Below are positions 4,688 through 44,795 of a stretch of 44,795 nucleotides of DNA, piece after piece (within the stretch, counting starts at the first letter, position 1; every line of letters begins with the position of its first letter). Below the pieces are notes generated by a model. It was given only the letters and a program-made list of their open reading frames with translations, made no database searches and was not told where the DNA came from. This DNA is from a virus. A program made the position numbers and the translations under genes. The DNA is taken from IMG/VR virus record IMGVR_UViG_3300025154_000173, positions 1-44,795 of that record. The stretch is one strand, 5' to 3'.

Positions 4688-4760
4688 GCACGATTAACTC
4701 AGCGGTCTAGAGTGGCGATCTCTAAAATCGTTGTCATCGGTTCGAATCCGATATTGTGCA
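4688..4760 (+). tRNA. Amber suppressor tRNA (anticodon CTA)
   Basis: All arms pair well: acceptor GCACGAT/ATTGTGC, D stem ACTC/GAGT, anticodon stem GCGAT/ATCGT, T stem ATCGG/CCGAT. The 7-base anticodon loop is CTCTAAA, which places C4722, T4723 and A4724 at 34-36, so the anticodon is CTA and reads UAG. Discriminator is A. The charged amino acid cannot be deduced. A gene with an in-frame TAG (Pth2-like) begins 436 bases downstream. Confidence 0.9.
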
Positions 4761-4873
4761 CAAACAAACACTAAATATGGAACAAACTATGAAATAGGTA
4801 TACACAAGGGGTCCTTAAATTTTTCTTTTTGAAATTTATTTATAACATAAACTAACAAAAAGGAGAAATTAAA

Positions 4874-9146: not shown

Positions 9147-9171
9147 TGGGTATAAGAATGATAGTAAATTT
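9147..9171 (+). promoter_or_regulatory. Phage-type promoter motif copy 1
   Basis: Contains TGGGTATAAGAATGATAG, closely matching the copy at 18426. It stands 26 bases before the paralogue 4 start codon. Confidence 0.6.
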
Positions 9172-18425: not shown

Positions 18426-18450
18426 TGGGTATAAGAATATTAGTAACTTT
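18426..18450 (+). promoter_or_regulatory. Phage-type promoter motif copy 2
   Basis: TGGGTATAAGAATATTAG, 30 bases or so upstream of the plus-strand gene at 18480; nearly identical to the 9147 copy over 24 bases. Confidence 0.65.
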
Positions 18451-19552: not shown

Positions 19553-20947
19553 CTATTTTTTACCCTCTTCTTTTAATAGATTTAAAAACAGTCCATTAAT
19601 TTTCTCTTTATTTTTGCTAACATTGTACAAATACTCATCTGCGGTAACTCTGTTAGACCTAGCGGTGGTTATACCAACTTCACTCAAAAGTGTAGGCTCA
19701 TCTGGGAATTTACTTAAATACTTGTAAACTTCCACATTTCGATCTTTTTTAGGTAAAGCAGAGTGAGACTTATATCTAATGGCGCGCCCTATGACTTGGT
19801 CTAATTTTGGGTTATTCCAGTGTGGCTCTAAAATGTGAACGGCTATGGTATTTTTCAGGTCTAGACCTTCCCCACCAGACGAGGATACTAATAGAGCTTT
19901 TAATTTTCCTGAATTATAGTCATTTACTAGTGCTTGCTTTTTTGTACTATCTAATTCACCAGTATATAATCCATATGGTATGCCTTCTTTGTCCATTGCG
20001 TCCGCAATTGGGTACACCCCGCTTTCTAAGTAATTAGAATATATCAGGGAAGGACCTTTTGTTTTTCGTACAGCGTCCATGACTTTTTGTACCTTGGGAG
20101 TTGCATCGACCCTGCCAAATCTAGTATTAGTATTACTTATCTGCCTAGTGGCTGATAGAAAAGCATTAAGTTTATTTGCCTCGGTACCTGTAAGAGGTCC
20201 CAACGTGGTTAATTTTCTGCGTAGATTTATTGGTAACTTCTGTTCATAGAAATTATATGAATTTACTTGGTCAGGAGTCATGTTTACGGTTACACTCGTT
20301 TCATTAACGACTGGGTAGTCTCCAAGGTTTTCACTAGCATCCTTATAGTCTACTAATCCTGCAATTTGTTGCTGTAAAAACTTTTTATTTTTTAAAGAAA
20401 CCACATGTTTAGGTTTTGCATTTTCAAATATGCGTGCGTAAGCTGTTGGATAGTCAGTGTAACTGTTAATAAACATTTTATTAAAGGTCTTGGCATCTGT
20501 AGGTAATCGCTCTTCACCGCTTGCAATATTTACTAACGACGCCAGTTCACTGGGTTTATCTTGAATAGGTGTTCCTGTCAGTAAAACTCTTTTTCCAAAG
20601 GATCTAGAAACAGCATTTAACTTTTTTGCACGTGAAGTGTCTGGATTTCTCAGTTTGTGCGCTTCATCGAGTATAAGCATATCATGGAACTTAGACTTTG
20701 GATCTCTTATATATTTATCGTATGATCTAACGTCGAAGTTATTCGAATCAGATCTAGACCCCTTTACTTCTTTACTAAAGTTTTCTTGCAAGGAAGCAGG
20801 AGTTATTACTGTAGCGTTAAGACCTAATTCATTAGCAGCATTGATAGCTCCATAAGTTTTACCACTACCAAGCCCCCAATATAAAATTTGGCCGTTCTGT
20901 TTTTCAAGCTTCTTAGCAATACGTTTTTGGTGGTCTTTTGGTTTCAT
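19553..20947 (-). CDS. SNF2-like superfamily 2 helicase/ATPase
   Basis: 464 residues. Motif I is GLGSGKT near residue 27, motif II LILDEAHK near 93, motif III LLTGTPIQ near 122, and motifs V-VI SSSGGEGLDLKN and QVIGRAIRYKSHS near 355-395. The set and order match SNF2-type DNA translocases; T4 UvsW is a functional comparison only. Such proteins remodel DNA or displace proteins during replication, repair or transcription. It ends in TAG at the shared terminator. Confidence 0.88.
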   Translation of the reverse strand: MKPKDHQKRIAKKLEKQNGQILYWGLGSGKTYGAINAANELGLNATVITPASLQENFSKEVKGSRSDSNNFDVRSYDKYIRDPKSKFHDMLILDEAHKLRNPDTSRAKKLNAVSRSFGKRVLLTGTPIQDKPSELASLVNIASGEERLPTDAKTFNKMFINSYTDYPTAYARIFENAKPKHVVSLKNKKFLQQQIAGLVDYKDASENLGDYPVVNETSVTVNMTPDQVNSYNFYEQKLPINLRRKLTTLGPLTGTEANKLNAFLSATRQISNTNTRFGRVDATPKVQKVMDAVRKTKGPSLIYSNYLESGVYPIADAMDKEGIPYGLYTGELDSTKKQALVNDYNSGKLKALLVSSSGGEGLDLKNTIAVHILEPHWNNPKLDQVIGRAIRYKSHSALPKKDRNVEVYKYLSKFPDEPTLLSEVGITTARSNRVTADEYLYNVSKNKEKINGLFLNLLKEEGKK

Positions 20948-20959
20948 ATTTTATATATT

Positions 20960-20984
20960 ATGGTATAAGAATATTAATATAAGG
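20960..20984 (+). promoter_or_regulatory. Phage-type promoter motif copy 3
   Basis: ATGGTATAAGAATATTAATA, followed by AAGGAG and a 26-codon gene. It lies in the short gap after the helicase start. Confidence 0.65.
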
Positions 20985-26010: not shown

Positions 26011-26193
26011 CTAGTTCACCATGTTATTGCGCTTAGCAAAAGCATTAATATTATTTTTTTTAGTTTTCTCCAAAAGTGTAACCATTTCCAGAGTTTTTAC
26101 AGGATCTTTTATTGCATTTTTGCTTTCCAGTACTCCCTTAATTTGTTTATCCTGCGCTCCTAATATAGCCAGTTCTTTAAAAAATTTTCCCAT
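26011..26193 (-). CDS. Small helical protein with MGKFF tag, ends in TAG
   Basis: 60 residues from ATG 26193, chosen because GGAGAT lies 7 bases upstream and the product then begins MGKFFKELAILG; an ATG at 26205 is also in frame. Charged and helical. It ends in TAG; suppression would add six residues before a TAA. Confidence 0.6.
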   Translation of the reverse strand: MGKFFKELAILGAQDKQIKGVLESKNAIKDPVKTLEMVTLLEKTKKNNINAFAKRNNMVN

Positions 26194-26362
26194 TAGAATC
26201 TCCATAGGTTAGTATACTAATATACGCTAAAAGCTGTGGGTAGTAAAGTATCTGCGCATTATCACAGCCATCACAGGACACTTTCCAGCGTAACCTGCAA
26301 ATCTTCTTTGCGGTAATTGTCCCTTTTTTACATTTATCGCAAGATATATGATCTTCGTTCAT
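26177..26362 (-). CDS. Small zinc-ribbon protein
   Basis: 61 residues with C-D-K-C-K-K-G near residue 8 and C-D-G-C-D near residue 30, two C-x-x-C knuckles of a zinc ribbon. Its ATG overlaps the stop of the RNA polymerase gene (TAATG), so it is co-translated with it. A transcription accessory role would fit the position but is only inference. Confidence 0.65.
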   Translation of the reverse strand: MNEDHISCDKCKKGTITAKKICRLRWKVSCDGCDNAQILYYPQLLAYISILTYGDSNGKIF

Positions 26363-29300
26363 TAATAAAACTCCCCTTTCTCGAAATCTGTGTTTCTTCC
26401 AAAGTTCTCGCCGTACAAATACGCAGGCACTGGATCTTTGCCTTTAATATTTGCATATTGTCCTTTCGAAGCACCGATGGTTAAACCTGCTTTAACACGA
26501 TTAGTGGTTATACGAGTCATCCAGTCATCTGAATCAGTGTTTAAGGTGTCTATTGATTTAAAGTAAGGTTTATAGGTTATTAACTCTAGCCCATCTTTTT
26601 TACGTTTTCTATTTACATTATCAATGTAGGATATGCTAACCTTATCGCCCCGATAGGCACCTGAGTCGTCAGGGGCGGTTGTTATTTCTGCATTATCAGA
26701 TATTCCACGTAAAACAGTTTCAAAAGTTTTATCGTAAAACTGACCTTCGTAAACTTTACCTAACTCTTTTACTATATGTTGTTGAGCTGCTAAGTGTGTA
26801 GTAAGTTCTCCAAGTTCTTGTGGTTTTACAACACCGTCTGATAATGGATCGCCCTGTTTAACTCTCTGACCTATCGTAACAACTGGTGTACGTCCTGGTG
26901 CAATTACATAGTTTTTTGTGTTAACTTTAACAAAGTACCCACCAGTTACATTCTTTGTAATCTCTCCAACTAGTCCGTCTTCTTCTGCAAGTGTTGCTTT
27001 TCCGCCTAACTTTTCTGGAACTTTAAGTAACTGCTCTATTCTAGGAAAACCTGCAGCGATTCCACCTCCACCTAAAGCACTTCCGCCTGAGTGAAAAGTT
27101 TTCATGGTTAACTGGGTAGAGCGTTCTGTAACAGCCTGTGCTTCACTTACACCAACATTTTCCCCTACAGGTGCAAGTTGTCCGTTTGGAAGAAGTCCGT
27201 AACACATTTGACAAACGCCTTCAACTGAATGACATGTCAGCGGAGAACGTACTTTGAGGGTAACCAGTCCTTTTTGTTTAGCTTTTTGGATAACTATGTT
27301 GTCGACAATGTCATTACGTTTTCCTATACCTGCTATACTGTGTAGCAAAGCACGATCCATAACATTCTTATCATTTATTTCAAACTCTAAACCTTCGTCA
27401 GTTCCGCAATCTATCTCGATTACTAGTAAGCGTCTATTTACATTTAACAGAGATTTATTTAGTGCACCTGACTCTTGTGTATTTACCGCACGATCCACAG
27501 TACCTTTACGTACTGCATACAGTGAGTTCCAGTAAGAAGCTGTGTCGAGTCCTTCGCCGTAAGATTTTAGTACTGGTATTTCTAACGGTGCCCCGTTAAT
27601 ATCTGTAAGAACACCAGGCATAGAAAGAATTTGTCTAATGGAATCTTTTTTACTGAATGATCCAGACGCGGCCATTTTACCTAAATTGTTTTCACTTTTT
27701 TCAAGAAGTACGTTTTGAGCATCTTGTACCTTGAGTGTTAATGTGTTTAGGGCCTCAATTCTCTTATCACCTTTTAGTTTATTTATGGCTGGAAGTTCTG
27801 CCTTTAACAGTCTGTCTCTGTATCCTTTATCTCCGATGAAATCCGTGATAGAAATTGTATGACCTTTAAGGTAAGAATAAGTAGCTCCCAAATTTTTCCA
27901 TGTGTTGATTACATTAGGAAAGTGCTGAGGCTGGTCTTTGCCAATTTCAGTTAATAGTTTTTCTGCAGTTTTAGAAGTTAAAACTCTTGTGTAATCTCTA
28001 TATTTATCTGGAAGATCAGAATTAATCATATACTGACCAATGGTCATAGGTTTTCCATTAAGCTTAAACTCTTCTGTCCATTTGAGTCCAGACTGTTTTG
28101 CCTCATCTATAGATTTAAAACTCTTACCAGACTTACTAGTAGTTTTGCTAAGTTCCCACAAACCAAAAATATAATCTTTAGTTAAGTCAGGCATTAACTG
28201 ATTATCGCCGTGCTTGAATAATATTTTACTTGGCATCATGTTTTTAGCTTCTTCTACAGCTTCACGACTAATAGGCACCATCATACTCATTGTATCACCA
28301 TCAAAGTCAGCATTAAACCCTTTAATAATAAGTGGGTTTAGCCGTATAGACTTACCCTTCATCAACACTGGATTAAATGCTTGTACAGAATGTTTATGCA
28401 AACTTGGCGCCCTGTTTAGTATAATAGGACGAGTTTTTATAACTTCACTAAGTGCATTTTTGGCGATTGGACTTTCTTCATCGTAATATTTCTTTGCATC
28501 AGTTACTTTTATACCAGACTGTTTCATCTCTCTCATTATAAACGGTTTATACATAGTATATGCCATGTCAATAGGTACGCCTACTTGGTCTAACCCTAAA
28601 TCGGGTTCTACTGTAATTGTAGAACGTCCAGAAAGATCTTGTGGTTTAGTCCAAAGAACTCCCTGTATCAAACCTGATTTCATTTGTCCAAGTTCTTTAA
28701 TAAAACCTTTATACTTGTCTTTTGAAAAAGTCATTGGGTCGGTGAAACCTTGTAAAGCTTTAACAGAGTTATATAAAGCAACTTGGCTTTCAACTTTGTC
28801 TTTATCGCTTAACTCGGAGTACATACTCTTAAGACTCTGATTTATCAAACCTACGTCACGATAATGTTTGTTAATATCACTAACCATTAAATCACCAGAC
28901 GGCAATGGATATATAGTTCTGAACTGTGGTGGAACAACTGGTACTTTTGACATAGTATAAGCATCTGCTGCTTTCATGTCTAAGTCTTTAAGTGCAAGCA
29001 TGTATTTTAATTTCGTGTTTAATTTATTTACATTAGTAGGAGGAGCTGTTTTTAACTCTGCCTTTAAAGTTTTTATTTGCGCGTTTACGTCAATGTTGTT
29101 AAGACCTGCTATAAGTGCAATTACTCCTGTTTTAGAATTTAATTCTTTTTTACCGTGCAGTACATTTTCAAAATCTGCTTCTGTTAGATTTAGGGCTTTC
29201 ATAATTGCGTCTTCATACATTGGATTAGGAATACGTTCTACTAGATCTAAGTGTGACCAGTTAGTTCCTTTTACTCCACCTGTAATAACAGGATCAAACA

Positions 29301-32300
29301 ACCCACCTTTACGGGTAGCAAGATTTTTACCTATAAGCATTGCGCCTGGATCAGTGAGTTCCCCTGCGGACATCTTCGTTACATCAGCATCGGTTAAAGG
29401 AAAAATTCGTAAGTTGTTTCCTTTCTTCTCAACATTTATTCCAGATCCTTTTAAGTATGCAGTCATTTTTTCAAATACAAAGTTACGATTTGGCTTTCCA
29501 GGAGGAAGTCCAAACTGCAAATCTCTCCAGTACTCATCATTTTTTCTACCTTTTACTTCTGCCATTTCACGTAGATTTGTTTTAGCTCCGTGAGATAGGT
29601 ACGAATAAGCATCTAATATTCCAATCTTTTGAACCCCTTTTCCAGTAGGCTGTTCATCTGTATCATAAGAACCAAATGAGTGCACACCTTGTTTCTTCTT
29701 AACAATGTGTCTAAGTTTCATAATATATTGTTTACCTACAAAGATAGGAGTCTCAATTGGAATCCCTGTCTTACCATCTACGAGGGTTTCATTTGCCTCA
29801 AGTCCATTAGCTTTTAAATCGTCATAAACTTGTTTTGCTGAATCTATTTCTGGTTGTTGAAAATTATTTACAACATAGGTTTTCCCTTGCTTCTCTGCTA
29901 TTTTCCCAGCAGCTGTTTCTAGTAGTTGTCCAATATTCATACGACCTGGTACACCTTCAGGAGATAATAAAATATCAATAGGCTTACCATTGGCTCTATG
30001 TGGAGCATCCGCATCAGGAATTAATTTAGTAATAATAGATTTATTACCATAACGTCCTGCAATTTTATCTCCCTCTTTTAATGGATGCTTTGCTTTGATG
30101 TATATATCTACATTTCTGCCAACGACGCGTACATCTGTTACAACGCCTGGATCTTCTTCATCCCAACGAGTTACATTTTTAGAATAGTTATTAAAGGTAT
30201 ACTTATCTAGTTTCTTTAAGGTCTGTTCAATGTCATCCATTTCTTTTTCGATAAGCAGTGCACAGACTATTTCATCTGGATGAATAGTTTCTCCTACTTT
30301 TATAATTCCTTTATCATCCAGCTTATTAAAGTTCTCTTGAGACATGAGATCAGGAAACCAAGCATTAAACTTACGTTTGTCGAACACCGTTAGCTTAGGA
30401 GAATAATAGACGTTAATTCTATGCAACATCGTGTGTGCCATGCGTTGTGCAGCGCTCTCCGTCATTACAGCGCCGTCCTCAAAGTTATAACCTTTGTAGG
30501 ACATGTATGCAACATCTAAATTTTTACCTAATGCAAGAGTTTGATTGTCCGAGTAATTATTATCCGCGATAAAAGATTCAGGTACTACTGAATCTCCAGC
30601 TTTTACTAAAACGTTAGATTGTAAATACCCATCTTGATTTAATGGAAAGTTATTATAGAGTCCGACTTTTTTGGTTTTACCTTCGTCGGTTTTTATTTCA
30701 ACGTAGTTGTCATCTACCTTAGTAACGATACCAGTTGCTCCAGCACGTTGGTTAAGAAATGCTCCCATTACGTGTTCATAGGTAGAATTTTTATCGCGGT
30801 ACACCTGAACAAGCGGAGCTTCTTTTTCATCAATGGCTAACGCTTGGGTAATCATTCTGGCTCCAGTGGCTGCACGGTTTCCCTGAGTACTGTGCATGAA
30901 AGGCACTAAATTTGCTTGGTATGAAAACATACTTCGTGGAGATCTTAAATAATACTTAACTTCATCTTTGGGAAATTCTTTTGATTCCCCTTTATACATA
31001 CTCTTTATACTATCATATCTAGGCATTACATTTTTAGCTTCGTCCCTTACGTACTGGTCAGGGAATCCAATTATGTTTTCAAAAAATTGAATCGGAGTGA
31101 ACCAGTGTATTTTTCCTGTCAAATCAAATACAGGAGTTACAAGGTCATTGCCAGACTTTCTTACTTCCGAAGATAACCCAACAGTAATTCCTACTTTTAA
31201 AGATTCTGGGGTGCTCAAAGGGTCAAGAAATCCAAGGTGGGTAGGTTGTATATCTCTCGCATCTGTAGTAATAGCATGTGAACTTTGAATACCGCCTGTA
31301 CCCATAGGAGTAGTTTTACGCCACTCGGCTGCGATTGTAACAGGGTTAGTTTGAGGAGGAGTAGTAGATAAGTCTCCTACAGTAAAGAAGCGCTTAATTG
31401 GTTCTCCAAAAGTAGCTGCGGAAATAACTTCACGAACTTGATCTTTAAGACCTAAAGTTCGCTCTAATTTCTTTTTGATCTGTGGGGCGAGTTTGTCAAA
31501 GTAACTTACAAGTAAATCATCGGTAGAAAACACACGTTTATAAACTAGTGAATCGCGCTCATCTGCTAAACCTTCCCCTCGGTTAATTGCAAGTAATTTT
31601 TTACTGGCGGCTAACATTGCAGGTCCGTTCGCGCTGCTGAAAGATTCACCTAGGGTTAGTTTGGTTGTGTCTGGGTCGACCTCTGTGCCTTCATTAAAAT
31701 ACTTTTGTAATCCAGATATTACTTCTTTGTAGTCTTTAGGGTCCTTGTTATAAAGTTTCTTGTAAATACTCGTCATTTCAGATACTTCAGTATTTAAAGC
31801 ACCTTTTTTATTCAGTTCTAGGAGCTCATCTCCCCAAGCTGTACGTATCTCTGCATCAGGTGTACCAATGGTATTAAGCAAAGTCCACAAACGATATTTA
31901 CGGTTCTCAAACATTATAACAAAATGCTGGTTATTTATATCTAACTGCATTTTAAAATTTTGACCTTTGGACAAGTTAAATTCGGATTCAAGTTCACCAT
32001 TACGTTTTATTCTAGAATAAATACCAGACTTTCTACGAATTTGGTTTACAGTTTGGTACTCATTACCATCGATTATCGTAGTAAAGCGATTTGTAATCTT
32101 AGGAATATTGCCAATTTTAACATTTTTAGCGCTGCTTAGTTGTCTCCCAGACTCTATATCTACGATATTAAAGTCGGCAATGATTGGATTTTGCCACGAT
32201 TTTCTATCAAGTTTTACTTCTTTTTGCTCTGGAAAGTTCATATCATCCAAAGTATCATCGAATCGTAGATTAGACATAATCATTCGTCTTCCTTGATTCT

Positions 32301-32385
32301 CCAAAGGAAATACAGATTTAATCGAGGTTACGAGAGCATCTTGTAGTTGGGTATTTTGTATTTTTTGACTTAAGCCACTATCCAT
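26362..32385 (-). CDS. rpoBC: Single-chain beta-beta' DNA-dependent RNA polymerase
   Basis: 2007 residues in one frame. The beta part (about 1-1000) has IQPTHLGFLDPLSTPES near 378, GYNFEDGAVMTES near 634, GRYGNKSIITK near 780, the GVPGRMNIGQLLE block, and MKLRHIVKKKQGVHS near 892. The beta' part (about 1000-2007) has KGGLFDPV near 1028, SGRSTITVEPDLGLDQVG, LNRAPSLHKHSVQAF, the catalytic NADFDGDTMSM near 1360, CHSVEGVCQMCYG near 1723 and TQLTMKTFHSGG near 1765. All three magnesium-binding aspartates are intact. The beta' N-terminal zinc finger is not seen, and no alpha, omega or sigma gene is visible in this window. Bacterial beta-beta' fusions are known in Helicobacter and Wolbachia; jumbo phiKZ-like phages have split subunits instead. 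First gene of its operon, behind a sigma70-like promoter and GGAG. Confidence 0.93.
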   Translation of the reverse strand: MDSGLSQKIQNTQLQDALVTSIKSVFPLENQGRRMIMSNLRFDDTLDDMNFPEQKEVKLDRKSWQNPIIADFNIVDIESGRQLSSAKNVKIGNIPKITNRFTTIIDGNEYQTVNQIRRKSGIYSRIKRNGELESEFNLSKGQNFKMQLDINNQHFVIMFENRKYRLWTLLNTIGTPDAEIRTAWGDELLELNKKGALNTEVSEMTSIYKKLYNKDPKDYKEVISGLQKYFNEGTEVDPDTTKLTLGESFSSANGPAMLAASKKLLAINRGEGLADERDSLVYKRVFSTDDLLVSYFDKLAPQIKKKLERTLGLKDQVREVISAATFGEPIKRFFTVGDLSTTPPQTNPVTIAAEWRKTTPMGTGGIQSSHAITTDARDIQPTHLGFLDPLSTPESLKVGITVGLSSEVRKSGNDLVTPVFDLTGKIHWFTPIQFFENIIGFPDQYVRDEAKNVMPRYDSIKSMYKGESKEFPKDEVKYYLRSPRSMFSYQANLVPFMHSTQGNRAATGARMITQALAIDEKEAPLVQVYRDKNSTYEHVMGAFLNQRAGATGIVTKVDDNYVEIKTDEGKTKKVGLYNNFPLNQDGYLQSNVLVKAGDSVVPESFIADNNYSDNQTLALGKNLDVAYMSYKGYNFEDGAVMTESAAQRMAHTMLHRINVYYSPKLTVFDKRKFNAWFPDLMSQENFNKLDDKGIIKVGETIHPDEIVCALLIEKEMDDIEQTLKKLDKYTFNNYSKNVTRWDEEDPGVVTDVRVVGRNVDIYIKAKHPLKEGDKIAGRYGNKSIITKLIPDADAPHRANGKPIDILLSPEGVPGRMNIGQLLETAAGKIAEKQGKTYVVNNFQQPEIDSAKQVYDDLKANGLEANETLVDGKTGIPIETPIFVGKQYIMKLRHIVKKKQGVHSFGSYDTDEQPTGKGVQKIGILDAYSYLSHGAKTNLREMAEVKGRKNDEYWRDLQFGLPPGKPNRNFVFEKMTAYLKGSGINVEKKGNNLRIFPLTDADVTKMSAGELTDPGAMLIGKNLATRKGGLFDPVITGGVKGTNWSHLDLVERIPNPMYEDAIMKALNLTEADFENVLHGKKELNSKTGVIALIAGLNNIDVNAQIKTLKAELKTAPPTNVNKLNTKLKYMLALKDLDMKAADAYTMSKVPVVPPQFRTIYPLPSGDLMVSDINKHYRDVGLINQSLKSMYSELSDKDKVESQVALYNSVKALQGFTDPMTFSKDKYKGFIKELGQMKSGLIQGVLWTKPQDLSGRSTITVEPDLGLDQVGVPIDMAYTMYKPFIMREMKQSGIKVTDAKKYYDEESPIAKNALSEVIKTRPIILNRAPSLHKHSVQAFNPVLMKGKSIRLNPLIIKGFNADFDGDTMSMMVPISREAVEEAKNMMPSKILFKHGDNQLMPDLTKDYIFGLWELSKTTSKSGKSFKSIDEAKQSGLKWTEEFKLNGKPMTIGQYMINSDLPDKYRDYTRVLTSKTAEKLLTEIGKDQPQHFPNVINTWKNLGATYSYLKGHTISITDFIGDKGYRDRLLKAELPAINKLKGDKRIEALNTLTLKVQDAQNVLLEKSENNLGKMAASGSFSKKDSIRQILSMPGVLTDINGAPLEIPVLKSYGEGLDTASYWNSLYAVRKGTVDRAVNTQESGALNKSLLNVNRRLLVIEIDCGTDEGLEFEINDKNVMDRALLHSIAGIGKRNDIVDNIVIQKAKQKGLVTLKVRSPLTCHSVEGVCQMCYGLLPNGQLAPVGENVGVSEAQAVTERSTQLTMKTFHSGGSALGGGGIAAGFPRIEQLLKVPEKLGGKATLAEEDGLVGEITKNVTGGYFVKVNTKNYVIAPGRTPVVTIGQRVKQGDPLSDGVVKPQELGELTTHLAAQQHIVKELGKVYEGQFYDKTFETVLRGISDNAEITTAPDDSGAYRGDKVSISYIDNVNRKRKKDGLELITYKPYFKSIDTLNTDSDDWMTRITTNRVKAGLTIGASKGQYANIKGKDPVPAYLYGENFGRNTDFEKGEFY

Positions 32386-32400
32386 GGGATCTCCTTAAAA

Positions 32401-32422
32401 TTTGGTATAAGAACTATGTGAA
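32401..32422 (+). promoter_or_regulatory. Phage-type promoter motif copy 4
   Basis: TTTGGTATAAGAACTATG, facing the plus-strand MoxR operon about 180 bases downstream. It lies in the untranslated leader of the minus-strand polymerase transcript. Confidence 0.6.
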
Positions 32423-32439
32423 GATGGAATTACTGTCTT

Positions 32440-32468
32440 AATATAACACATTAACATTTAAAAATCAA
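32440..32468 (-). promoter_or_regulatory. Sigma70-like promoter of the RNA polymerase operon
   Basis: On the minus strand TTGATT (32463-32468) and TATATT (32440-32445) are separated by exactly 17 bases, about 55 bases upstream of the polymerase ATG. The same hexamer pair and spacing occur at 18390-18418. Confidence 0.65.
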
Positions 32469-32594
32469 ATAGGATCGATTGTTGGAAGAACTTCCTGACG
32501 ACTAATAAATTTTGACGATTTTATTTTTTAAATAAGACAAGCGGGGATATGTGCAATGCTACACAAATCCCACCCCGCTCCTTTTGAGGATACT

Positions 32595-32957
32595 ATGAAA
32601 AGGCTAAAAACATTGCTGGAAACGGCGTACAAAATACAAGAAATTGATGACAACTCGTGTGTTATCCAGGGGACAGAGCAGTACATAAAGTACGTAGCTA
32701 TTTCTTTACATTATAATTTCTTAGGCATTAAAAGCATTAATATGAGCTATAGCGCTACTATGCCATTCCATGAGCAAATTACTGAAGTTTATGAGGTAAT
32801 ATTGCCTGGCTCTTTTACTACAGAGGTCGACTTTTTAACACGTTTGGCTATAAAAGAAAAGTTGGCAAACACCACTATTACACTACTTATAAGTGAGTAT
32901 AACGCCAGACTGGCGCAATATTCACTATTTAACCCTGATACACAGGAAACTACATAA
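32595..32957 (+). CDS. Hypothetical protein upstream of MoxR
   Basis: 120 residues from ATG 32595, chosen for GAGGA 5-9 bases upstream; an earlier in-frame ATG at 32556 lacks one. Alternating strands and helices, no recognised family. Its TAA overlaps the MoxR ATG, so it is probably part of the MoxR-VWA unit. Confidence 0.6.
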   Translation: MKRLKTLLETAYKIQEIDDNSCVIQGTEQYIKYVAISLHYNFLGIKSINMSYSATMPFHEQITEVYEVILPGSFTTEVDFLTRLAIKEKLANTTITLLISEYNARLAQYSLFNPDTQETT

Positions 32958-34111
32958 TGATCACAATGGCTCTTGTTGACAAACTCCTAAAAATAAAAGA
33001 TGTCTTAGATGACAATTTTGTGGAGCGCGGTGACGAAACACACGGCTTAAACTTAGCTACTATAACAGGTTTAAATATTTTACTGTTAGGTCCCCCTGGC
33101 ACAGCCAAATCTAACCTAGTTATAGCTTACCAGTCGTTATTCAAACAGACAACTAGATTTGAAAAACTTCTAACCAAATTCACAACCCCCGAAGAAGTAT
33201 TTGGTCCTTATTCCCTAAAGGGACTCGAGAACGACGAATACTATCGTCAGATAAAAGGGTACTTGGCAGATTGCCACTTTGCTTTTATTGATGAGACTTT
33301 TAAAAGTTCATCGGCACTATTAAATTCTTTACTAACCGTAATGAATGAACGCAAATTTACAAATGGCAATGAGGTGCTGGACATTCCTTTGGTAACTCTA
33401 GTAGGCGCCTCCAACGAAATTCCAGAAAACTCCGATGGACTAACAGCTCTATTTGACAGGTTTCATTTAAAGTTTGTCGTTAAACCAGTGCAAGAACGTT
33501 CTAACAGAATTAAAATGCTAATGGCTAGCATGACACAAGTAAAACCGATAATTACTTTGGATGAACTAGAACAGGTTAAAAAAGAAGTATCACAAGTAAA
33601 GTTCTCTGATGAGATGGCAGATGTGTATGCTAACATAATAGACAGCCTGCACAAGGAAGGAATTCCTGCAACAGATCGTACTTATAAAATGTCTGTGCAG
33701 ATATTAAAAGCAGAAGCTTATCTACACAAAAGGGAAGAAGTAAACGAAGACGACTTCGATATTTTACAATTTGTTCTTTGGACAGATCCAGATCAAAAGA
33801 AAAAATTGTATACTACTATCTTGAATCTGGTTAATCCTGAAAAGAATCAAATTCTAAAATTGTGGGAAACCGCTAATGAAGTATTTGAAAAAATCACGGA
33901 AACTACAGATAAAAACGAGCAGATGAAGTACGGCGTAGAAGCTGCGAATAAACTAAAAGATATTAAAAACAAATTACATGAATATTATACAAGTCATCAA
34001 AAACTTAATAAAAATGTAACTGAAATCAAAAAATACGAGGACGGCGTCGATTCTATGCTTGCACGAGTATTTAAAGTGCATCTAGGGATGGGTGCTTCTA
34101 CTTTCTTATGA
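32957..34111 (+). CDS. MoxR/RavA-type AAA+ ATPase
   Basis: 384 residues. Walker A LLLGPPGTAKSN near residue 45, Walker B FAFIDETFKSSS near 110, sensor 1 LVGASNEIP near 150, and an arginine-finger-like LFDRFHLKF follow in the MoxR order. MoxR ATPases act as chaperones with VWA-domain partners, and the next gene encodes one; ATGA overlap links them. The C-terminal 100 residues are helical and charged. In phages such pairs are widespread but their substrate is unknown. Confidence 0.85.
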   Translation: MITMALVDKLLKIKDVLDDNFVERGDETHGLNLATITGLNILLLGPPGTAKSNLVIAYQSLFKQTTRFEKLLTKFTTPEEVFGPYSLKGLENDEYYRQIKGYLADCHFAFIDETFKSSSALLNSLLTVMNERKFTNGNEVLDIPLVTLVGASNEIPENSDGLTALFDRFHLKFVVKPVQERSNRIKMLMASMTQVKPIITLDELEQVKKEVSQVKFSDEMADVYANIIDSLHKEGIPATDRTYKMSVQILKAEAYLHKREEVNEDDFDILQFVLWTDPDQKKKLYTTILNLVNPEKNQILKLWETANEVFEKITETTDKNEQMKYGVEAANKLKDIKNKLHEYYTSHQKLNKNVTEIKKYEDGVDSMLARVFKVHLGMGASTFL

Positions 34112-35188
34112 GAGACTTAAGCAAAAAAAGAAAACTTCTTAACGACGATATAAGAATAGGAAAAAATACCATCGATCAAGATGCATATGATATTTTTCTG
34201 TTTGACGAAATTAAGAAGAATAATCCAAAGATTAAAAATACTGAAACGGATGGTACCAAAGGTTACGCACCATTTAAAGAATTGCATCAAGATTTATTTG
34301 ACGCTCTTTTTAAATATGCCCCTAAACAAGTACCAGAGAATCAAATCATGTACTCGCATTTATTAAATTCAGAAATAATGTCTGAGATACTTAAATCGCC
34401 ACAGTACAAAGAATTACGAAACTTGACTCGTCTAGATTCCATAGCTGCAACAGTTGGTACAGAAATAATGGGCGAGCAAGTACAAGAGTTGATAAAAGAC
34501 TTAAAAGAGAAGTTTGACGAGTTGGTAAAACAACTTGAACAGGCTGCTAAAGATGCGGCAGACGCACAAAAAGGTGAAGGTCCTGGCGAGGGTGAAGAAG
34601 GTGGACCAGGTGGTGATAAAACTCCTGGTAAAGAAAAAATAAAATATGCAGAGGCTCAAAAAAGATTAGAGGAACATCTAAAACAGGTGAAAGCCCTAGT
34701 CAACAAAAAAGAAATTCGGGCTATTAACAAAATACTGGAAAACGCCGTCAATGAATCTAGAGCTACTTCTGATTTAATTACGAATTGGGGACTAGACGCA
34801 TCTGATACCTTTACAAAAAGCAGCTATCAAGAAAAATTAAAATTACTAGAACGACTTAGAAATTCCACGAAACTTAAACAGATCGCTGAGTTAGCAGGCC
34901 GTTACAAACGAATGGCTATACAAACTCAACGTGAAAAAGTTAAGAGAGGAATGGATGAGGTGTATGACATTATCCCTGGAAGAGACTTAGGAAAGTTACT
35001 CGCTAGTGAGAAGATGAAACTTTTACATCCGATTACTAAACTGCTTTTCAAGAAGGATTTTCTAGAGGGTAAAACACTTCAGTATGAAACTTCTGGTAAA
35101 GAGAAAAAACAAAAAGGACCTGTGATTATCTGTATAGACGATTCAGGATCGATGAGTGGCCAAAATGAGATCATTTTGGCTTCTCAGT
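34108..35188 (+). CDS. VWA-domain partner of MoxR, exon 1
   Basis: About 360 codons, N-terminal half charged and helical with a G-E-G-rich linker near residues 150-175, then the start of a VWA domain: VIICIDDSGSMSGQNEI, the first metal-site motif. The frame then runs into an intron and stops at 35203-35205 if unspliced. The exact 5' splice site is not settled; T35188, just after a CAG codon, is my best guess. Together with the exon at 36137 it rebuilds a complete VWA domain. Confidence 0.75.
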
Positions 35189-36136
35189 TTAATGTGCTAT
35201 ATTAACATATTAATTTAATCAGCACTTAAAATGCAATATAAAGAAAAAACTTGTACTAAATGTAAACAAACAAAACTTCCTGAGGACTTTAATAAAAGAT
35301 CTGGCGGAAAGTGGTTAATGTCGTTGTGTAAAAAATGTGATACTATTGGAAGACGTGAACGTAAGGAAAAACAATTAGGTAGAAAAATGAGGAGAATAGT
35401 AGGAGCGTACACTCAGAAAGAAGAACAAAAATTATTTGACATGTATGTAAACAATTATTCTTACGCAGATATACTAAAAGAATTTCCTGGACGTTCACAA
35501 CATACTATTGAATCAAAACTACATTCAATGGGTATTACTAAAAAGTATAAAAAATATAGAAGAGTACAAACAAAAGCAGAACTTGAAGTAGAGAATATAC
35601 TAATTCAATTGGAAGTAGGTTACATTAAAGAATACCCAATTTCTAAATATGTAGTAGACTTCTTTGTTAATGGATTAATTATTGAAGTTCAAGGTGCTTT
35701 TTGGCATTGTGACCCTTTATTATTTCCAAATGGTCCGAAGTACGATAACCAAAAAATTATTGTACAGAAGGATAAAAATAAAAAAGAGTTACTACTTTCA
35801 ATGGGATATTCAATTCTATATATTTGGGAAACTGACATTAAATTTAGAAAACAAGAATTAATAGAAAGTCTACAAGTCGTCCTTAATAGTAATATTAAGG
35901 AGTATGATCGAGCAATATCGGTGGAGGTCCTAAGGGATGATACCGAGATAAATAAGTTAATTACGAAAGGTAACTTATCATCGTAACGCGTAGGTAGTGA
36001 ATAAATATAATCTACCCAAGAGTGCTCGATACCCTATTATTAAGTTAAGGGTAAAAATGTACGCTGACCTATACGTAATGGTATAGAAGTTAAGATAAAA
36101 AGCTTAATGATAACAACTGTTGGGCCAAGAGTGTTG
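35189..36136 (+). mobile_element. Group I-type intron with endonuclease gene
   Basis: The insertion separates two halves of one VWA domain and contains an endonuclease gene. Intron-like pairings: GTGCT/AGCAC near the 5' end, an 8-bp ATCGAGCA/TGCTCGAT (about 35907 and 36023) that could be P3, and hairpins TACCC/GGGTA, CTATAC/GTATAG and TTAAG/CTTAA near the 3' end. I do not see a textbook P7, so the class is probable rather than certain. The 3' end is either G36133 or G36136. Confidence 0.65.
35231..35986 (+). CDS. Intron-encoded Vsr-like homing endonuclease
   Basis: 251 residues. Residues 5-45 have two C-x-x-C pairs (CTKCKQ, CKKCD), residues 65-110 a SANT/Myb-like helix-turn-helix (TQKEEQKLFDMYVNN), and residues 120-220 a very-short-patch-repair-type nuclease: VDFFVNGLIIEVQGAFWHCD and GYSILYIWETDI. 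This is the EDxHD/Vsr class of homing enzymes. It sits inside the VWA gene intron and its 3' end overlaps likely intron-core pairings. Confidence 0.8.
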   Translation: MQYKEKTCTKCKQTKLPEDFNKRSGGKWLMSLCKKCDTIGRRERKEKQLGRKMRRIVGAYTQKEEQKLFDMYVNNYSYADILKEFPGRSQHTIESKLHSMGITKKYKKYRRVQTKAELEVENILIQLEVGYIKEYPISKYVVDFFVNGLIIEVQGAFWHCDPLLFPNGPKYDNQKIIVQKDKNKKELLLSMGYSILYIWETDIKFRKQELIESLQVVLNSNIKEYDRAISVEVLRDDTEINKLITKGNLSS

Positions 36137-36594
36137 CAATGGGTGTGTTGGAGATTACGAGAATACAAAAGCGTGACCTCTATGTAATACACTTCGATGC
36201 ATCGCCGAAAGAACATTTACATTGTAATTACTTCCCAAAAAATAATTACAACATAGAAGATATAATAGACATGGCCGAGTACTTCTCAGGAGGAGGAACG
36301 CAATTCCAACCTCCGTTGGATCTGGCTAGGGATAAAATAGATTTAATGAAAAACTTCTCTAAAGCAGACATCTTGTTCATTACAGATGGTGAATGTGCTG
36401 CAACAGAAGGGTGGCTTAAATCTTATTTAAAATGGAAAAAAGATAATAACGTAAATATCACATCAATCTTGATTGATACTTATGACAATTCAGACTCCTG
36501 TGTCAAAACCTTTTCTGACACCGTAGAAAAACTATGGTGCCTTAAAAAAAATAATTCAGACGATTTAGCAATAAATCTATTTTCAAACATTTAA
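36137..36594 (+). CDS. VWA-domain partner of MoxR, exon 2
   Basis: About 152 codons in the frame MGVLEITRIQKRDLYVIHFD, the helix and strand that follow the first metal motif of VWA domains. GGGTQFQPPL supplies the threonine motif and FITDGECAA the aspartate motif. Spliced to exon 1 it gives a protein of about 510 residues. Ends in TAA, directly upstream of the retron RNA region. Confidence 0.75.
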
Positions 36595-36796: not shown

Positions 36797-37690
36797 TTGA
36801 CAATTTATGATTTAACAGGATTTTCAAAAACAGTGGTAGATGAAGTAGCCAATAATATAGAAAATTATTACATGTCATTTCCTATAAAAAAGGCTAGTGG
36901 TAAACTTCGATGGATAGATGCTCCACAAGAGCCCCTAAAAGAAATTCAGAGTAATATTCTAAAAAACTTAGTATACAAATTTAGGGCACATCCGTGTGCT
37001 TTTGGATTTATCAAAGGTAAAAGCGTGAGAGATGGTGCAGCGATGCACGTACAAAGTAAAGTACTTCTATGTGTAGATGTTTCAAATTTCTTCGGCTCTA
37101 TCAAAGTTAATGAAGTCTTTAGGTTGCTTACATACCTATTGAATAATTGTAAAGATCCCATACCTTATACTAAGGAAGAACTTGAAATACTAACAGCCTT
37201 GTTAACATACAAAGGTGGCTTACCGCAGGGTTCTCCTGCAAGTCCAGCACTTGCCAACATGTTCTGTATGAAATTAGATCAGCATATGTACAATCTCGCA
37301 AAGATAAATAACTTGCGCTATACACGATACGCAGATGATATCAGTTTTAGCAGCAAAAATTTTGACTTCATGATGTTTACTATTCTCCCAGACATTAATA
37401 AGGAATTAATAACATGGGGGTTTAAGATGAATCCGAATAAGACCAGGATACTAAGACCTCACAGAAGAATGATAGTGACTGGCGTAGTTGTTAATAGCAG
37501 ACTAGGCACCCCTAAATGGGTGTGGAAGAACTTAAGAGCAAGATTACACAATTTACTGGTACAGACGGGTAGTTTATCTACAGCTGAGTATCAAAAACTC
37601 CGAGGCCAAATTGAATGGATAAGAACATTACATCACAAGCGTGGCGAACAATTACTAGCAGCGCTTGGGAAGATAACTTTAAAGAATTAA
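36797..37690 (+). CDS. Retron-type reverse transcriptase
   Basis: 297 residues from a TTG at 36797. Motifs in order: RWIDAPQEPLKEIQ (domain 1), FGFIKGKSVRDGAAMH (the N-A-x-x-H-like retron segment), LLCVDVSNFFGSI (catalytic Asp), GGLPQGSPASPALANM, YTRYADDISFS (catalytic YADD), GFKMNPNKTR and MIVTGVVVN, the VTG triplet typical of retrons. A candidate msr-msd lies upstream. Retrons are usually bacterial anti-phage systems; one in a phage may serve competition or be a passenger. Length is near the retron norm. Confidence 0.88.
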   Translation: MTIYDLTGFSKTVVDEVANNIENYYMSFPIKKASGKLRWIDAPQEPLKEIQSNILKNLVYKFRAHPCAFGFIKGKSVRDGAAMHVQSKVLLCVDVSNFFGSIKVNEVFRLLTYLLNNCKDPIPYTKEELEILTALLTYKGGLPQGSPASPALANMFCMKLDQHMYNLAKINNLRYTRYADDISFSSKNFDFMMFTILPDINKELITWGFKMNPNKTRILRPHRRMIVTGVVVNSRLGTPKWVWKNLRARLHNLLVQTGSLSTAEYQKLRGQIEWIRTLHHKRGEQLLAALGKITLKN

Positions 37691-40165: not shown

Positions 40166-40190
40166 GTGGTATAAGAAAAACGTAGTAGAG
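40166..40190 (+). promoter_or_regulatory. Phage-type promoter motif copy 5
   Basis: GTGGTATAAGAAAAACGTAG, directly upstream of the long structured noncoding region. Confidence 0.65.
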
Positions 40191-43039: not shown

Positions 43040-44795
43040 TTACACTGAACCTTTTGTAGGCCCATGCTTTTTCTTACTATCATCTTTAGTTTGTTTTACT
43101 TTATCGCCTTCACGTTTTCCAGGTCCTTTATGATTAGGAGCTTTCCCATTCTTGGGTTTACCTTGTCCTTGTGGTTGTGCAAGCTCTGGCATCATTTGCA
43201 TCATCTGCGCTTGATACATTGTCATACGTTCCATTACCATTGTAAAGGTAATTGGCATTTTTTTCTGTAGTTCCATTAGTTTCTGTTGTTGGAATTCTAC
43301 TGGTAAGTTAAGGAGTTCTATAGCATACTTGTCAATAAGTCTATAAGGATCTTCTGGAATGCTTCCATTTTCTTGAGCTATCTCATTCTCGAATAACTCT
43401 GCCTTAGCTCTGAACTGTTCATCAGTCATAGCTTTTTGAGCACGCGCTTGGTAAACGGCAAGTATAACTTGTGCCTTACCTTGACCTTCCGCTTGTTTCT
43501 CTGAGTCTTTAACCATGTCTTCCAGAGAGGATAACCTGCTCTTACGAAGTGTTTCATTCTCTTCTTCTGAGTCATAACCAAATTCGTCAAGTAGTTTAGG
43601 ATCAGATATTTTACCAGTTGCATTAAGTTGTATCGCGAGTTGTTTAGCTTCGCTATCATCTGCCATTTTAAATTTCTTAAATGAAACTTTGACTTCTGGA
43701 TACCCAAGTAGTCCTGTAAGTTTAGGTAGTAAAAAGTAATTCAAGAAATCACCAAGAAACTCTCGATAGTTTATAAAACCATTTTCGATAATTCTTAGTG
43801 AGACTGATGAGCCAGTCCAACTAGCTCCCCCTTTAATAAATTCAAGAGGAACACCTAACGAGTTAATAATACTTTCTTCCGTGAATTTCATTTCAGGAGT
43901 AACCATTAACATTTTAGCATTGCCGCCTAATTCTTGATACTGCATTGGAATAGGAAATATCGCTATATGGTTAGGGTCAAGCTTCCATTTTTTAATGGTC
44001 TGCTCAACTTCCCCTCTCCACTTGCCAAGATTCATTTGCGTGAAGGGGTCCATCGTAGCTGTATTTGCTGGGCTAATAGTTTTTTTAGGAACCATATGGT
44101 CATTAGCAATAGCTTCATTACCTTTTCTAAGAATCTGTAAATAGTAAATTTCTTTTAATGCAGGTAATATCATCGGGATACCAAATCCCATGTCTTCTTC
44201 GGCAAGGCTCGGATATTTAATATGATACAGGTTATCAGGTTCTAGTTCTATCTTCTGATTCTTTTTTAAAGCTTCTAAGAACACAAGTGGCGTATCTTTA
44301 AGAATAACAGTATTGCCTGCTATTATTTGTGCTTTAATCTTATTTGGAATTGAATAGTAGTATGTAGCTGATCCTGTAATTGGATTGAAATCTATGTCTA
44401 TATTATCAGGTGACCATCTAACCAGTCTAAAATTATTAATAGATTTTATAGGCTCGTCAATTGCTGTAAAGAAAACATTATCTTTTCCACAAACAGGGCA
44501 ATTTCCATGAAACTCGTAGTTACGAAGTTTCAGTTTTTTTACAGACTCATATTGGTTCTGTTCTCCACATGCTGAACATTTTAAGAATCTTTTTGTTTTT
44601 AAGAACGTAGAAATAAAAACGTTACCATAGGTATAATAATCCAACCCAACTTCTATAAGAAAAGATTTAATACGAAGTTTATTATTTAAAACTTCTGACA
44701 ATTCTTTTTTAGTTTTTTGATCTATGCTGGAATCAAATAATAAGTCTGTTATTGGATACGTAGCTAACTTAGTTATTACATTACGTAACCAGCCA
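43040..44795 (-). CDS. Portal protein, N-terminus beyond the window
   Basis: The frame is open to the window edge (GWLRNVITKLATYPITDLLF...), so the start lies outside; an internal TTG at 44701 is not needed as start. Features: GLDYYTYGNVFISTF, a zinc-knuckle-like CSACG...CPVCG near the visible N-terminal third, FGIPMILPALKEIYYLQILRKGNEA, LGVPLEFIKGGASWTGSSVSLRI and NGFINYREFLGDFLNYFLLPKL, the order seen in myovirus-type portals. The C-terminus is glutamine-, then lysine-rich. Portals form the dodecameric DNA channel of the head. Confidence 0.82.
   Translation of the reverse strand, partial: GWLRNVITKLATYPITDLLFDSSIDQKTKKELSEVLNNKLRIKSFLIEVGLDYYTYGNVFISTFLKTKRFLKCSACGEQNQYESVKKLKLRNYEFHGNCPVCGKDNVFFTAIDEPIKSINNFRLVRWSPDNIDIDFNPITGSATYYYSIPNKIKAQIIAGNTVILKDTPLVFLEALKKNQKIELEPDNLYHIKYPSLAEEDMGFGIPMILPALKEIYYLQILRKGNEAIANDHMVPKKTISPANTATMDPFTQMNLGKWRGEVEQTIKKWKLDPNHIAIFPIPMQYQELGGNAKMLMVTPEMKFTEESIINSLGVPLEFIKGGASWTGSSVSLRIIENGFINYREFLGDFLNYFLLPKLTGLLGYPEVKVSFKKFKMADDSEAKQLAIQLNATGKISDPKLLDEFGYDSEEENETLRKSRLSSLEDMVKDSEKQAEGQGKAQVILAVYQARAQKAMTDEQFRAKAELFENEIAQENGSIPEDPYRLIDKYAIELLNLPVEFQQQKLMELQKKMPITFTMVMERMTMYQAQMMQMMPELAQPQGQGKPKNGKAPNHKGPGKREGDKVKQTKDDSKKKHGPTKGSV

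Follow-up and report, generated by a model that had tools for sequence, protein, structure and literature searches.

A single-chain beta-beta' RNA polymerase conserved in a lineage of mostly uncultured tailed phages

Does a tailed phage make the two large subunits of a bacterial-type RNA polymerase as one protein, and what would such an enzyme serve for? The question arises from a 44,795-base stretch of DNA (termed the window), which is the entire virus contig record IMGVR_UViG_3300025154_000173 of IMG/VR and a fragment of a phage genome. The minus strand at 26362-32385 is a single open gene encoding 2007 amino acids (aa) from ATG to TAA, with an AAGGAG five bases ahead of the ATG. A preliminary description, made from the letters alone, had reported an uninterrupted 2007-codon frame, with no strand named, in which beta hallmarks are followed by beta' hallmarks; the frame stands as described, and the order of the Pfam matches, Rpb2 domains 3 and 6 followed by Rpb1 domains 2 and 5, agrees with that of the hallmarks. 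A phmmer search against the sequences of solved structures yielded 206 matches, and bacterial beta' chains lead among the 60 listed. The proposed compact single-chain beta-beta' polymerase in a tailed phage gains support from a portal homologue at 43040-44701. The gene and its parts are given below, with counts referring to the phage rows of the family alignment.

26362..32385, minus strand: fused RNA polymerase gene, 2007 aa, ATG to TAA (frame, Pfam and family scans)
29428..32385, minus strand: beta part, residues 1-986 (alignment to Salmonella and Staphylococcus RpoB; model)
29413..29427, minus strand: junction turn KKGNN, residues 987-991 (a hairpin in the models, joining strands 983-988 and 991-996)
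26365..29412, minus strand: beta' part, residues 992-2007 (alignment to RpoC; model of 820-2007)
30040..30072, minus strand: beta catalytic stretch GDKIAGRYGNK, residues 772-782 (both lysines in 98/98 rows)
28294..28314, minus strand: NADFDGD, residues 1358-1364 (all three aspartates in 98/98 rows)
27082..27111, minus strand: LTMKTFHSGG, residues 1759-1768, which we take to be the trigger-loop motif (alignment)
29251..29280, minus strand: short loop GGVKGTNWSH at the site of the beta' N-terminal zinc finger, residues 1036-1045
27202..27408, minus strand: second zinc site, C1660, C1718, C1725 and C1728 (each cysteine in 93/98 rows)

In the alignment with RpoB and RpoC of Salmonella and Staphylococcus, the beta part runs to GINVE (residues 982-986), near the end of bacterial beta, and after KKGNN the chain continues with LRIFPLTDADV from residue 992, equivalent to residues near the start of bacterial beta'. 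The identity to bacterial beta and beta' is 28% over most of the chain length. As the whole chain is too long for one model, two overlapping AlphaFold models were used: residues 1-1190, with a mean predicted local distance difference test score (pLDDT) of 87.6 that falls to only 52-66 in residues 891-970, just before the junction, and residues 820-2007, with a mean pLDDT of 89.3 and a predicted template modelling score of 0.84. Structural comparison of the former against solved bacterial beta chains gave 9dvs_C as the best match (Z 36.4, 4.2 Å over 922 residues), whereas the latter resembles the Thermus beta' chain 9ukt_D solved by cryo-electron microscopy (Z 33.0, 3.4 Å over 987 residues); its top match, 9a4w_B (Z 33.1), is itself an integrative model. 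The junction adopts a strand-turn-strand conformation in both models, with a pLDDT of ~95 in 820-2007 and of 83-86 in 1-1190. In the predicted structure, the C-terminal strand of beta is thus connected to the N-terminal strand of beta' by a turn of five residues. The linker that the preliminary description had placed around residues 960-1030 and proposed for structure prediction does contain the junction, but this comprises only the five residues 987-991.

The fusion is shared by the relatives of the window protein. A scan of IMG/VR with this protein found 137 relatives and kept the best 80 of them, and a second scan with a beta' alignment as the query found at least 522 relatives among at least 600 stretches, of which again the best 80 were kept. 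Of these 160 loci, 25 of the second 80 repeat a sequence of the first set, and 128 are left after removal of copies. The frame is open across residues 982-997 in 160/160 kept loci, which excludes chance and assembly error; a frameshift or an assembly join between two genes, named by the preliminary description as the possible undoing of its reading, is ruled out. Complete single frames in the standard code account for 129 loci, and 14 others require TGA as a sense codon, 10 of them to carry the frame through residues 930-1060; in 7 the beta' tail is encoded separately (L059, counted here, is also truncated by the contig end), and 10 further loci are truncated by the contig or locus end. Structure alignments covered 56 relatives. 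The junction is exactly five residues long in 57/57 aligned proteins and in 74/74 members of an overlapping set that includes insert-bearing, TGA-bearing and re-split proteins. This constant length argues that the fusion is an evolved part of the enzyme rather than a loose tether. The preliminary description could not say how rare a phage fusion is; in this large, mostly uncultured phage lineage it is the rule, not the exception.

Of the features of two-barrel polymerases, the catalytic domains of beta and of beta', DxDGD and both beta lysines are all present, and this catalytic anatomy points to an active polymerase. NADFDGD is intact, as had been described. The reported lack of the large beta' N-terminal zinc finger is likewise seen in the alignment, where TGGVKGTNWSH takes the position of the four-cysteine finger of Salmonella. 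All four finger cysteines are missing in 98/98 phage rows and present in 72/72 bacterial rows, and the finger site has 8 residues in 87 of 98 phage rows compared to 39 residues in 72/72 bacterial rows. The unfused beta' of Rhizobium phage TM21B, Vibrio phage Va2 and Cobetia phage Carin-5 retains the four cysteines. At positions 513, 516, 526, 529 and 531, which we assume to be the rifampicin contacts, the window protein is altered throughout, to T, P, E, K and T, respectively. The window polymerase is perhaps rifampicin-insensitive through this altered pocket, a prediction for the window phage only, since the pocket varies across the family (Q513 is retained in 24/98 rows and D516 in 26/98).

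Phylogeny of both halves, as proposed in the preliminary description, was performed by quick maximum-likelihood trees of 47 rows for beta' and 44 rows for beta, which included 27 of the 98 fused rows and 16-17 of at least 72 bacterial rows; L061 was omitted, and the branches are long (3.1 for Carin-5 in the beta' tree). In both trees the 27 fused-phage rows form one clade, with Shimodaira-Hasegawa-like approximate likelihood ratio support of 100 for beta' and 99 for beta, the bacteria form another, and long-branched separate-gene phages lie beside the fused clade. The agreement of the two trees fits a single old fusion event. The recognition of the fused proteins as one clade, based on these sequences, is new here. 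A bacterial source of the fusion was also considered and rejected, as the best 80 of at least 595 bacterial genome loci are ordinary rpoC with none fused; 69 of them have both genes as separate frames and 11 have rpoC only.

One subgroup, consisting of seven loci, Salmonella phage Arash and Vibrio phages D69 and D181, keeps beta and the N-terminal part of beta' fused and carries the last ~600 beta' residues as a separate gene. This re-split appears as one change on the beta tree, but the two split groups are not joined on the beta' tree; with the outgroups used, the unsplit form would be the older. The split lies after about residue 1384-1429 (loci L054, L055, L056, L059, L061, L075, L077, L082 from Arash and L083 from D69), and the gene of the C-terminal part lies 0.6-4.8 kb downstream. 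The fused gene of D181 (L084, 2872-10908) is interrupted between residues 499 and 504, where a homing endonuclease is annotated, and the D69 gene is whole, indicating either an intron or a split gene in D181.

Several variations of the gene were observed among the relatives. L002 (9959-16030) and L004 (9950-16072), ~58% identical to the window protein, apparently read TGA as tryptophan: 4/5 in-frame TGA codons in L002 and 4/4 in L004 align to a tryptophan of the window protein, whose own gene is free of in-frame TGA. L003, L037 and L069 show the same frame pattern, L187 and L188 also require TGA as sense, and in L005/L184 the TGA is located in an insert. Inserts of ~300-520 aa occur in 13/74 polymerases (L005, L029, L041, L049, L050, L053, L057, L064, L066, L067, L070, L074 and L081), with two in L066 and three in L070. 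They sit mostly in active-site motifs, namely the beta GDK, NADFDGD, the trigger-loop motif and the TPE loop, and appear intein-like from their position and end residues alone.

Relatives of the Rhizobium phage beta' were not found in IMG/VR by a single-protein query; an alignment query found four, and in 4/4 the beta' stretch and the beta-like stretch each lie in a frame of their own. Carin-5, a different phage type with a Gp23-type capsid, has separate beta' and beta genes (L095, 4541-8391 and 8583-11363) and an annotated sigma gene directly upstream of them, which has no sigma match in Pfam. The phage-filed records L085, L099, L100 and L102 apparently hold ordinary bacterial rpoB-rpoC, a contamination of the collection; L100 is a Salmonella contig, and L099 groups with Bacillus in the trees. 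Polymerase matches occur in 64 phage records, 12 of which were fetched, and short unannotated contigs among the others may hold further fused genes.

One relative, Arash, is in culture. Virion proteomics of this phage identified 116 proteins, among which Gp206 has the most spectra of all (3516, from 128 unique peptides at 100% coverage), compared to 1333 for the major capsid protein, 1210 for Gp216, 1148 for the helicase Gp217 and 467, again at 100% coverage, for the sigma factor Gp10 (PMC10585845). Gp206 is annotated as 'subunit beta' and spans residues 17-1429 of the window protein, that is, beta plus the first part of beta', so a plain annotation can conceal the fusion. Gp206/Gp216 and the D69 enzyme belong to the same polymerase clade as the window protein (both were tested in the trees); they and the D181 enzyme differ in having the beta' tail as a separate gene, whereas the window chain is whole. 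The authors propose a role in early transcription or, alternatively, carry-over of abundant proteins (PMC10585845). These data make the packaging suggested in the preliminary description plausible, and the fused enzyme is probably present in particles of the window phage as well. The window shares two further genes with Arash and contains no capsid gene:

43040..44701, minus strand, frame open to the window end: portal protein gene, homologue of the Arash virion protein Gp204 (tblastn 32%, 432 aa, E 1e-79)
19553..20947, minus strand: SNF2-type helicase gene, homologue of the Arash virion helicase Gp217 (35% identity, 483 columns)

G002, a near relative whose polymerase is 57-61% identical to that of the window, has homologues of Arash TerL, portal, major capsid protein, Gp217 and both sigma factors by tblastn. 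The Arash sigma gene lies within a block of virion genes, adjoining a cell wall hydrolase, and G002 has a 41-aa match to that hydrolase (E 0.001) 3 kb upstream of its sigma gene. Two G002 segments, 189967-190353 and 191227-192567, both match the Arash terminase; they are ~870 bases apart, and their query ranges overlap (residues 7-137 and 41-520), perhaps reflecting an insert in the terminase gene.

The preliminary description had called the enzyme alpha-less, which the wider search upholds: alpha (PF01193) was found in 0/33 records with the enzyme, some of which may be incomplete, compared to 13/14 control genomes, and omega (PF01192) in 0/33 compared to 14/14. An alpha dimer as assembly platform thus has no candidate in the 33 records. 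The polymerase itself (PF00623) occurs at a single place in 33/33 records, although a very divergent second set could escape this search. Pfam sigma region 2 is matched in 11/32 records and region 4 in 14/33 (10 above the cut-off). A tblastn search of Arash proteins against G002 exposed a further, unusual sigma factor, the homologue of Gp10, encoded at 48446-49165 of G002. A two-row profile of this type matched 42/49 longer records, among them 29/29 with a length of 160 kb or above. It missed seven, namely the window and records between 100 and 150 kb long, and three of the 42 have one stop in the matched frame (TGA in G001 and G018, TAA in G032). Of phages in which the polymerase genes are arranged differently, the profile matched 0/4. 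Among 50,697 phage records, Gp10 has strong, long matches only in Arash and Vibrio phages D69, D181 and D148, and each of these carries the enzyme; weak matches that cover about one third of the length (E 9e-5 or worse) occur in eight cyanophage records, and a gut contig and a Microcystis phage also match weakly when the G002 sigma is the query. The Pfam matches of Gp10 are to sigma region 3 and, at a score under the cut-off, to a portion of region 2; region 4 was not found. That an unusual sigma factor accompanies the fused enzyme is, at the level of gene content, new here. The 345-aa open reading frame at 18480 of the window has the length of the second Arash sigma, Gp196, but is unrelated and was rejected as a sigma candidate.

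The preliminary description had further suggested that the polymerase might be made early from a sigma70-like promoter. This is unsupported: sigma70-like matches of 9-of-12 quality number 12 in 26100-32700 compared to 19.1 expected by chance, and a single such match (TTGATT-17-TATATT at 32468-32440) lies upstream of the polymerase gene, so we rejected such a promoter. A different promoter-like motif was found, with the following sites in the window:

32403..32413, plus strand: TGGTATAAGAA, between the polymerase gene and the divergent 32556 operon, facing the latter
20961..20971, plus strand: TGGTATAAGAA (motif scan)
40167..40177, plus strand: TGGTATAAGAA (motif scan)
18427..18437, plus strand: GGGTATAAGAA, 42 bases ahead of the 18480 gene
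9148..9158, plus strand: GGGTATAAGAA (motif scan)

When the 7- and 8-mers that precede genes were counted without guidance, GGTATAAG ranked first among the minus-strand 8-mers of Arash (10/67 regions), where the highest count of any word in shuffles was 4. Genome-wide, it occurs 31 times in Arash compared to 4.5 after shuffling, 22 compared to 8.2 in G002 and 5 compared to 2.0 in the window, and TGGTATAAGAA occurs 13 times in G002 compared to 0.5 and 3 times in the window compared to 0. In the 128 non-redundant family loci GGTATAAG was counted 112 times compared to 50, whereas a small control, eight loci from phages with other polymerases, gave 3 compared to 3.2 and bacterial loci gave 12 compared to 18; three altered words showed no enrichment in the 128 loci. 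The word and its complement also top the list from 918 upstream regions of the family. The form GGYATAAG occurs in the 128 loci 155 times on the strand opposite the polymerase and 27 times on the polymerase strand, and 43% of its matches are noncoding, while noncoding sequence makes up 5.3% of the DNA; at 45/79 noncoding sites, a gene on the same strand starts no more than 150 bases away. For GGTATAAG, such a start lies within 120 bases at 22/31 sites in Arash and 11/22 in G002. The sites opposite the polymerase strand number 30/31 in Arash, 20/22 in G002 and 5/5 in the window; the Arash and window polymerases are ~31% identical, and the genomes have ~53% and 36% G+C, respectively.

The consensus, TGGTATAAGAA followed by TG and with no upstream element, resembles an extended -10 box with G for the last T. 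A sigma factor that lacks region 4 is expected to rely on a -10 element with TG and to do without a -35 element, and Gp10, in which no region 4 is matched, suits a motif of this kind with no visible -35. The simplest link would be that a packaged sigma steers the packaged polymerase to the motif. In three phages, polymerase and portal genes lie on one strand and the motif on the other. This arrangement points to early genes behind the motif and to a polymerase that is made late and packaged; the position of the polymerase gene on the portal strand, opposite the phage's own motif, speaks for a virion protein of late synthesis with an early role. The promoter-like motif TGGTATAAGAA, mostly opposite the polymerase strand, is new here as a sequence pattern.

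Altogether, we consider it probable that the window encodes a virion-packaged, sigma-directed, single-chain polymerase for early genes. The chain would be made late, packed with its own sigma and helicase, and delivered along with the DNA; it would then transcribe the opposite-strand early genes from the extended -10-like promoters TGGTATAAGAA without the host enzyme. A broader proposal seems to us evenly balanced between right and wrong: that particles of this large lineage contain a whole holoenzyme, directed by sigma and based on a single-chain beta-beta' core, which has a promoter code of its own, TGGTATAAG (extended -10, no -35), and requires no alpha, omega or host subunit. One chain would save the search for a partner after delivery and would substitute for the alpha dimer as assembly platform. 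It was suggested that ejected phage polymerases pass the narrow tail unfolded and that their parts then have to meet, and the way in which alpha-less cores stay together was called unknown (PMC7598289). A single chain would ease both.

Several observations weigh against the packaged early enzyme. No Gp10-type sigma gene was found by the profile in the window, a 44.8 kb fragment, and several relatives have a second sigma of the Gp196 type. The Arash enzyme comes in two pieces, so a single chain is not required for packaging, and the re-split form shows that one chain is dispensable. The Arash authors allow that abundant proteins of the infected cell persist in purified particles (PMC10585845). 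As to the motif, the same words top the unguided count in G002 (7/76) without exceeding the shuffles (maximum 7), no such word emerged from the 42 window regions, and GGTATAAG is missing from 72/128 loci. The window has 5 one-mismatch sites compared to 1.5 in shuffles, one of 100 shuffles being equally high, and a same-strand gene start lies within 120 bases at only 1/5 of its GGTATAAG sites. The shuffles are crude (dinucleotide blocks), and the loci are related rather than independent, with G002 among the 128. Moreover, a host sigma could read the TATAAG box.

Among the alternatives, the one that survives best, though we regard it as unlikely, is a non-virion enzyme for middle or late genes, like the non-virion enzyme of phiKZ-type phages, with the presence in Arash particles due to carry-over. 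Carry-over is named by the Arash authors, ribonucleotide reductase and DNA ligase were also found in the particles (PMC10585845), and an enzyme encoded at a single place per record might work throughout infection. On the other side, the spectra of Gp206 exceed those of the major capsid protein, 3516 compared to 1333, although spectra are not copy numbers and the Gp206 chain is five times as long as the capsid protein, and the sigma and the helicase Gp217 are well detected in the particles too (PMC10585845). The place of the Arash sigma gene in the virion block beside the hydrolase, and that of the polymerase gene on the portal strand opposite the motif, also favour a packaged early enzyme over this alternative. 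It is improbable that the core depends on the host, borrowing its alpha dimer or sigma and reading host-like promoters. The lack of alpha in the 33 records and the TTGATT-17-TATATT match upstream of the polymerase gene would suit such an enzyme; however, its own kind of sigma accompanies it, sigma70-like matches around the gene do not exceed chance, and the shared motif has a G at the last T of the -10 consensus. Slightly less probable still is a precursor that a phage or host protease cuts into beta and beta', giving a working enzyme of separate subunits. Phages like phiKZ process head proteins, which lends this idea some footing. The 100% coverage of Gp206 in Arash cannot separate one chain from two (PMC10585845), but the turn has the same length in 74/74 proteins with no added cleavage segment and is modelled at a pLDDT of ~95 and 83-86. 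An assembly join, a frameshift product or a dead gene, conceivable for a metagenomic contig, can be dismissed, with the same join in 160/160 loci and the catalytic residues intact in 98/98 rows.

Among known enzymes, the fused rpoB-rpoC products of Helicobacteraceae and Wolbachia are cellular, with alpha, omega and the zinc finger, and the single-chain polymerase of crAss-like phages is packaged. The former share with the window protein the order of beta then beta' in one chain (PMC7483510, citing Zakharova 1999). The crAss-like and YonO-type polymerases likewise hold both catalytic barrels in one phage protein; however, the crAss enzyme escaped COG models (PMC7481178), whereas the window protein aligns with bacterial beta and beta' at 28% identity and matches their folds. 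The comparison with phiKZ made in the preliminary description is apt in that phiKZ/AR9-type phages have a cellular-type polymerase without alpha and omega, one form of which is packaged (PMC7598289, PMC7824862), but that group has split subunits, with several chains and two polymerase sets, compared to one 2007-aa chain in the window and one place in 33/33 records. It also has no recognizable sigma or other initiation factor according to the available text (PMC7598289), whereas a Gp10-type sigma is present in 42/49 longer records of the fused lineage, the window not among them.

A close precedent is the 'multimeric RNAP-encoding Caudovirales' (mReC; RNAP, RNA polymerase) of Weinheimer and Aylward 2020, which are metagenomic tailed phages, IMG/VR contigs included, with beta and beta' alignable to cellular ones and, like the fused lineage, in a clade apart from bacteria (PMC7481178). 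With parts of 986 and 1016 aa (at least 800 aa each being asked for), NADxDGD and a portal gene marking a tailed-phage contig, the window protein passes the mReC filters, where Pfam was used in place of their COG models and one frame serves both subunits. That study treats beta and beta' as two subunits, and in its available text 'fused' and 'fusion' occur once each, for crAssphage; all eight mReC capsid proteins that were found belong to the Gp23 family, PF07068 (PMC7481178). A Gp23-type capsid was tried as a marker shared with mReC and rejected, as 0/33 records with the fused enzyme match, compared to 4/4 separate-gene phages as a positive control (3 above the cut-off). Some fused sequences, already public, may sit unremarked in the mReC set. 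The open-licence PMC literature, as far as its texts were available and excluding subscription papers and supplements, yielded no description of a bacterial-type beta-beta' fusion in phages, and a 2026 jumbo phage review, in its available text, mentions unique insertions and fusions in RNAP subunits in general, without the word 'fused' (PMC13282480).

Other genes of the window were noted in passing. The plus strand at 32957-36594 encodes a MoxR-type AAA ATPase, an unnamed partner, a possible endonuclease and a vWA-like protein, which adjoin the polymerase gene on the other strand behind the TGGTATAAGAA site at 32403. A reverse transcriptase gene (Pfam RVT_1) follows at 36797-37690 on the plus strand. 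In PADLOC it fits models of retron reverse transcriptases best, type III-A and others; no retron RNA scored above the Rfam threshold in the window. Among nine tRNAs, the one at 4688-4761 on the plus strand has a CUA anticodon and was called tRNA-Pyl by ARAGORN, and TAG terminates only 3/32 larger genes. Recoding of TAG was rejected: no TAG lies in frame within the polymerase gene, and the main genes gained no telling extension when TAG was taken as a sense codon. In relatives, tmRNA genes lie near the polymerase on the minus strand in L002 (19884-20255), L005 (22180-22560) and L007 (23922-24312), among 11 loci scanned.

Known alpha-less bacterial-type phage polymerases have many chains and no recognizable initiation factors; here the opposite is found, one chain together with a sigma factor. 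As Arash can be cultured, two questions become testable: by what means a polymerase of this kind withstands being packed and delivered, and how small a sigma-responsive polymerase can be. An enzyme that is encoded by one gene, programmable through its sigma and perhaps insensitive to rifampicin would, in addition, be useful as a tool.

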